DNA from: Pseudomonas taetrolens
GTDB lineage: Bacteria; Pseudomonadota; Gammaproteobacteria; Pseudomonadales; Pseudomonadaceae
DNA: 64,000 nucleotides
Reading direction: 5' to 3'
Assembly: GCF_900475285.1 (NCBI RefSeq)
Contig: NZ_LS483370.1
Location: 3,672,001 to 3,736,000, forward strand
Shown here piece after piece: positions 1,532 through 5,090 of the stretch. The notes below the pieces were generated by a model, which was given only the letters and a program-made list of their open reading frames with translations, was not told where the DNA came from and did no database searches. The translations under genes were made by a program, and so were the position numbers. The first letter of the stretch is position 1; each line of letters starts with the position of its first letter.

Positions 1532-2974
<1,443 letters not shown>

Positions 2975-3186
2975 TTACGCGGTTTCTATTGCAGGAAAAC
3001 TCTTAACCAACTCGTCCAGGCCAGAAAAGCCGGCAACTGGAAAATGTCGCAGACTTCGACGTCCACGACTGCCAGGGCAGGTCGTGGACGTCATTACAGA
3101 AGCCTGCCAGATGCCTTGCACATCTACATGCCCTCTACGAGGCCGGAGCCACGGCAAGCGCTGACAGATGAGCGGTTGGCTTCTGC
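2975..3186 (-). pseudogene. kdsA: kdsA remnant (KDO-8-phosphate synthase), degraded
   Basis: Intact KdsA (about 281 residues) condenses arabinose 5-phosphate with PEP to make KDO 8-phosphate for LPS. Pseudomonas normally carries it between pyrG and eno. Here only about 210 bp remain. Reading the minus strand from 3183, one recognises EANRSSVSACRGSGLVEGM (family: KANRSSVTSYRGPGLEEGM) and then an in-frame TAG. After small deletions comes VEVCDIFQLPAFL (family: AEVCDIIQLPAFL). This joins, in another frame, LDELVKSFPAIETA and a TAA at 2975-2977, which is the normal C-terminus. About 60 N-terminal codons and about 150 internal codons are gone. The remnant starts immediately after the pyrG stop codon. 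Family comparison is from memory of the Pseudomonas protein. Confidence 0.88.

Positions 3187-5090
<1,904 letters not shown>

Follow-up and report, generated by a model that had tools for sequence, protein, structure and literature searches.

The gene kdsA encodes KdsA, a homotetramer that performs an early step in the synthesis of KDO, an outer-membrane sugar. In E. coli, group 2 capsule loci carry kpsF and kpsU, which are paralogs of KDO genes, and the housekeeping copies stay. In xenologous (horizontal) displacement, a foreign homologue takes over a housekeeping role, and the resident gene decays in its old place. Both situations resemble that of Pseudomonas taetrolens, which we analysed starting from a stretch of 64,000 nucleotides (hereafter, the window). 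As in the E. coli group 2 loci, KDO genes are duplicated in a kps locus; in contrast, the housekeeping kdsA is gone, and the Pseudomonas cluster holds a kdsB-kdsC fusion. Unlike other displacements, this one recurs within one genus, its newcomer is part of an accessory capsule cluster, and in 17 of 33 carriers that newcomer was found without the capsule-type kdsB-kdsC. Based on genome comparisons, the ancestral kdsA has very probably decayed after being displaced by a foreign copy from a capsule cluster, which would now supply KDO-8-P. A limited search of the literature returned no account of such a kdsA displacement, and we make no claim that it is unpublished.

The pyrG-eno interval of P. 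taetrolens

A preliminary description of this DNA had read a decayed kdsA in an interval of 365 bp between pyrG and eno. We measured the same 365 bp from the pyrG stop to the eno start (window 2822-3186), versus 940-1100 bp in 31 relatives that have only the native gene (25 of them within 989-1031 bp). Three KdsA blocks translated from the minus strand are colinear with native KdsA (Table 1). The alignment to native kdsA showed that about 60 N-terminal codons and, internally, about 440 nt (about 147 codons) are lost, which agrees with the 60 and 150 codons first estimated. The reading frame is disabled by a TAG between blocks 1 and 2, by indels and by the large deletion.

Table 1. Features of the pyrG-eno region in the window
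Feature	Position	Strand	Basis or remark
pyrG (CTP synthase), intact, upstream neighbour of the remnant	3187..4818	-	ORF list
kdsA remnant block 1, NRSSVSACRGSGLVEGM, then in-frame TAG; about 60 codons missing ahead of the block	3127..3177	-	
kdsA remnant, disrupted stretch: stop, several small deletions, one insertion	3067..3126	-	Alignment
Near-perfect 35-nt palindrome within the remnant	3058..3092	-	By eye and folding prediction
kdsA remnant block 2, VDVEVCDIFQLPAFL	3022..3066	-	
Junction left by the internal loss of about 440 nt (PAFL beside LDELV, frame changed)	3019..3022	-	Alignment
kdsA remnant block 3, LDELVKSFPAIETA*, including the original stop	2975..3019	-	
Last 8 kdsA codons, stop and CGGTAAAGTACCGC; kept in most kdsA-loss lineages	2949..3001	-	Putative eno-control function
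eno (enolase), intact, downstream neighbour of the remnant	1532..2821	-	

Using nhmmer against native kdsA, we detected the N-side piece (E 2.7e-23) and the 3′ end with the eno leader (E 8.2e-39), for which the best blastn matches in relatives were 73% (E 4.0e-21) and 79% (E 5.3e-38) identical, respectively. When the first 166 nt were dinucleotide-shuffled 500 times, no shuffle reached 0 bits, versus 69.5 bits for the real sequence; together, the shuffles and the E-values exclude that the residual matches are due to chance, which had been named as a possible refutation. No match to window 2701-3500 was found in E. coli genomes.

At codon positions 1, 2 and 3, the remnant shows 12, 12 and 15 mismatches to the native kdsA of relative G005 (of 70, 69 and 67 sites, respectively). 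At the same columns, living copies vary more at position 3, with 4, 2 and 16 mismatches in G006, 2, 0 and 16 in G034, and 14, 4 and 27 in G012, the most distant living control. The contrast in the remnant (24 changes at positions 1 and 2, and 15 at position 3) had the same direction against all eight living controls, with p < 0.05 against four of them (G006, G034, G004 and G009) and p values of 0.08-0.16 against G010, G024, G012 and G001. With synteny to pyrG and eno, homology beyond chance, a disabled frame and relaxed codon-position constraint, the 2975-3177 region is the ancestral kdsA of Pseudomonas at its syntenic place, now a pseudogene.

The remaining kdsA and its capsule cluster

The P. 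taetrolens genome is a single contig of 4,843,871 bases (completeness 100, contamination 0.48). The second kdsA copy that the preliminary description had called for does exist: with all seven candidates scored, the sole kdsA match in the genome was C1:2744272-2745045, above the family cut-off and free of stops. It belongs to a full-length gene (G000:C1:2744224-2745069; L031:9225-10070), whose product scores above the curated cut-offs for KDO-8-phosphate synthase (NF009109 and TIGR01362; 554.7 bits for the equivalog NF009109, cut-off 457) and matches KDO-8-P synthases in the PDB (best E 5.9e-141, 1o60). It differs from the native Pseudomonas KdsA, to which it is 70-73% identical among the matches listed, in belonging to a foreign subclade.

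The neighbours of this gene, whose inspection had been proposed, form an ABC-transporter capsule cluster. Upstream lie an ABC-2 permease, an ABC ATPase, a Wzz-domain protein and a Poly_export protein (L321), followed by proteins resembling glycerol-phosphate cytidylyltransferase and TarF, both below cut-offs, and then by kdsA, the kdsB-kdsC fusion, kpsF and two Capsule_synth proteins (KpsC- and KpsS-like; L031). The names KpsM, KpsT, KpsE, KpsD and KpsC were given to the cluster proteins by resemblance. The Pfam families ABC2_membrane, ABC_tran, Wzz (25.9 bits, cut-off 25.5), Poly_export and Capsule_synth (twice) are found together, and the locus thus combines an ABC exporter, export proteins and KpsC/KpsS-type proteins, as in ABC-transporter-dependent capsule loci. 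The KpsS-like protein scored 283 bits with NF050054, below its cut-off of 600, and the KpsC-like protein had no NCBIfam match.

Among the native KDO genes of the genome, kdsA alone is gone. Native kdsB (C1:1257148-1257873) and kdsD (C1:3872398-3873207) are intact, and a HAD phosphatase of the kdsC type, named from its position and resemblance, adjoins kdsD (L255:2340-2867). P. taetrolens therefore has two copies each of kdsB, kdsC and kdsD, and one of kdsA. Compared with P. paraversuta, the acquired kdsA has a dN of 0.015 and a dS of 0.27, which indicates that it is under purifying selection; the values for eno are 0.010 and 0.45. The lower dS of the acquired gene relative to eno (L031:9225-10070 and L058:6001-6819) may reflect later gene exchange.

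We propose that an ancestor gained an ABC-transporter-type capsule cluster together with its own kdsA, kdsB-kdsC fusion and kpsF. Because a second KdsA enzyme was then present, the native kdsA would have become dispensable and would subsequently have decayed through a stop, indels and deletions. The capsule-locus kdsA, now the sole KDO-8-P synthase gene found, should feed both capsule and LPS, and kdsB, kdsC and kdsD are still natively encoded as well. An accessory surface-polysaccharide cluster thus seems to be the sole source of one step of LPS synthesis, in a clear and recurrent case. Under this proposal, the capsule-locus kdsA should be essential in these species, and the case cautions against taking kdsA to be the syntenic gene.

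Ancestry of the acquired kdsA

We searched for the acquired protein in 398 genomes of the genus with up to six candidates scored per genome, so that copies may have been missed (G235 shows one, and its twin G448 shows two). Twenty-one genomes carry it, with 88-100% identity and best E-values of 7.0e-170 or below. In 374 genomes the best E-value ranges from 2.4e-132 to 7.0e-124, with at most 73% identity among the matches listed. No kdsA match was found in three of the 398 (G154, G350 and G386; 88, 91 and 77% complete, in 140-790 contigs). Outside the genus, the nearest sequences by identity come from Janthinobacterium (85-87%) and other Burkholderiales, among the best 80 of 191 matches.

In a KdsA tree of 132 rows, obtained by a quick search and with many weak forks, the capsule-type KdsA of Pseudomonas forms one group (SH-aLRT 99) nested among mainly beta-proteobacterial and Solimonas sequences (97), and native Pseudomonas KdsA is separate (100). 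The related kdsA occurs alongside kps-like genes in loci of Acidovorax, Achromobacter, Cupriavidus and Lampropedia, and near pyrG and eno in four Solimonas loci. Within the DNA examined, most Janthinobacterium loci have neither kps-like genes nor pyrG or eno beside it.

Recurrent loss of native kdsA

The pyrG-eno interval was measured in 42 loci, comprising 37 distinct carriers of the acquired gene plus repeats and controls. The carriers are 30 named ones, taken as the best matches of the acquired protein (best 80 of 191 matches), and G000, G003, G317, G294, G328, G086 and G335 (G217 repeats G419, and G296 repeats G447). Native kdsA is lost in 28 of the 37 (195-365 bp) and kept in nine (1001-1077 bp), fractions that, for the named carriers, are not prevalences, because these were selected as best matches of the acquired protein. 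Those nine, holding both types, bear out the earlier suggestion that some Pseudomonas have two kdsA copies, enabling one to decay. Among the 21 carriers from the 398 genomes, G294 and G296 keep the native gene; the other 19 have it deleted, as measured directly in seven (G000, G003, G086, G217, G317, G328 and G335) and through a named record with matching coordinates in 12. The nearest named kin in the same state as P. taetrolens is P. paraversuta, with 328 bp and other lesions. The interval is intact in all 34 native-only genomes measured (the 31 relatives plus G005, G012 and G034) out of the 374 of the native class.

The newcomer thus lies outside the resident clade, two-copy genomes exist, and, among the measured intervals, loss of the resident gene is seen only in carriers. 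The foreign clade, the deletion of the native gene in carriers and the retention of native kdsB together point to xenologous displacement by the capsule-cluster kdsA.

On a pyrG-eno tree of 71 rows, a single clade of losses is rejected (p-AU 1.4e-57). Fitch parsimony gives five changes in either direction. If only losses are allowed, the full tree needs at least 12, and the minimum falls to eight at branch filters of 80/50, seven at 90/80, four at 95/80 and two on the strictest filters (98/90 and 100/95). Additionally, P. kielensis and G317 retain a different inner kdsA piece than P. taetrolens, which is in favour of separate deletions. As to the species range, another of the proposed checks, the genomes with the loss do not form one clade, and the kdsA swap appears to have occurred repeatedly in Pseudomonas. 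The foreign origin of the second copy, the recurrence of the loss and its restriction to kdsA among the native KDO genes of the genome go beyond the preliminary description, as does the finding, described next, that about half of the carriers tested show the acquired kdsA without capsule-type kdsB-kdsC.

Two genomes, G426 and G448, have two kdsA each although the native gene is lost. In P. ceruminis (G426), a second, lower-scoring kdsA (C3:107279-108052; 357.7 bits) accompanies the copy near pyrF. Genomes G221, G256 and G381 show two or three kdsA matches, with a best E-value of the native class.

Acquired kdsA without the capsule-type kdsB-kdsC

Native kdsB was present in all 33 carriers in which we searched for kdsB, and native-class kdsD in all 11 genomes tested, nine of them carriers. 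A second, capsule-type kdsB (kdsB-kdsC) was found in 16 of the 33; the other 17 showed native kdsB only, where not found differs from proven absence because many of these genomes are drafts. Native kdsA is lost, and the acquired kdsA retained, in 17 of these 17. With capsule-type kdsB, the native kdsA is lost in eight and kept in eight, which brings the losses to 25 of 33. The survival of capsule genes elsewhere in the genomes was gauged by kdsB alone, plus kpsF in G331, which has one kdsB and one kpsF.

Ten of the 30 named loci have kdsA flanked by a curA-like oxidoreductase gene on one side and pyrF on the other. No kdsB-kdsC or kpsF was found within the DNA examined of L065, L066, L068, L069, L071-L073, L077, L080 and L082. 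The pyrF gene is also near kdsA-kdsBC-kpsF in L074, L083 and L085, and P. vlassakiae has two capsule-type kdsA (L087:3540-9198), one by pyrF and the second with kpsF 3.6 kb further on, a possible intermediate of cluster decay. The pyrF-flanked arrangement fits a cluster that decayed while its kdsA could not be lost. Nevertheless, the loss is not clean everywhere; L075 (Pseudomonas sp. CM27) is without kdsB-kdsC, yet kpsM-T-E-D-like genes lie beside its kdsA.

From these distributions, a displacement followed by lock-in of the acquired kdsA is probable. More tentatively, the process may be a one-way ratchet, in which the acquired kdsA becomes unlosable once the native gene is gone, even when the capsule itself is lost, and in which the one-sided outcome reflects incompatible KdsA enzymes; we regard this extension as possible but somewhat doubtful. 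If it holds, an orphan capsule-type kdsA would be the fossil of a past capsule.

The palindrome and the eno leader

The palindrome of the remnant is predicted to fold into a strong hairpin (-39.6 kcal/mol for 71 nt, z -7.18). At its position, the native kdsA of G005 has an imperfect inverted repeat alone. The palindrome looks like the product of a templated quasi-palindrome mutation.

In most genomes that lost kdsA, the deletions spare the last eight kdsA codons and the eno leader, although these codons are no longer coding. Among the 28 such genomes, which are related and hence not independent, AGTTTTCCGACGGTAGAAACC is kept with at most four changes of 21 in 23, and GGTAAAGTAC is exact in 23; the clearest exceptions to both are G421 and G317. 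The 2949-3001 region may possibly be a control element of eno that overlaps kdsA. Neither a promoter (sigma-70 consensus scan of window 2700-3300) nor an Rfam match (2600-3400) was detected; we have therefore left the candidate element unnamed. Terminator-like sites in 2700-3300 number three, versus 0.8 expected.

Alternative explanations

The loss could be a technical artefact if an assembly or sequencing error had collapsed an intact kdsA, and the evidence here is the assembly itself. The lesions are many and scattered, however, on one contig of a genome with the completeness and contamination given above, and 27 other distinct genomes, including P. paraversuta with its different lesions, have a shortened interval. 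As the preliminary description had already argued from the pattern of lesions, an artefact is hardly credible. Alternatively, the native kdsA could have been relocated into the capsule cluster rather than displaced, as the finding of just one kdsA in the genome might suggest. Against this, the capsule-locus protein shares 88-97% identity with capsule-type copies elsewhere in the genus and is closer to those of Janthinobacterium than to native KdsA among the matches listed, both types occur together in nine of the 37 distinct carriers, and the tree places them in separate clades. The clade and the identity to native KdsA mark the gene as foreign rather than as a moved native copy, and relocation is very improbable. 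Another reading is that the remnant was kept for a new job, with the hairpin as the pyrG 3′ end or with a regulator of eno. The predicted hairpin and the retention of 2949-3001 in most lineages with the loss would suit such a role. Nevertheless, P. paraversuta is without the palindrome and has kept little of the rest, 17 of the 28 genomes with the loss manage with 195-200 bp, and the Rfam search was negative; we consider a new role unlikely.

Loss of the native copy may additionally have been favoured rather than neutral, either because two different KdsA subunits interfere or because the acquired KdsA performs or is expressed better; lineages would then settle on the acquired kdsA and retain native kdsB. 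The one-sided direction is in line with selection: in the 33 carriers, it is native kdsA that is frequently lost and native kdsB that is always found, capsule-type kdsB-kdsC is often not found, and native-class kdsD persists. However, both kdsA genes are kept in nine of the 37 carriers, the argument is one of genomic comparison, and genomes without the acquired kdsA, among them lineages that lost it and kept the native gene, are invisible to a sampling that started from the acquired protein. A selected loss is thus a reasonable possibility, to which we give rather less than even weight. The one-copy and two-copy species allow testing why one kdsA wins.

Individual records

The eno of Pseudomonas sp. 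CM27 (G436 C479:20321-21819) appears as two matches that overlap in the model, perhaps owing to an assembly fault. The record L069, "Pantoea sp. Ap-967" (G430), groups among Pseudomonas in the pyrG-eno tree, and its label looks wrong; G155, its twin, is classed in the same genus as P. taetrolens.
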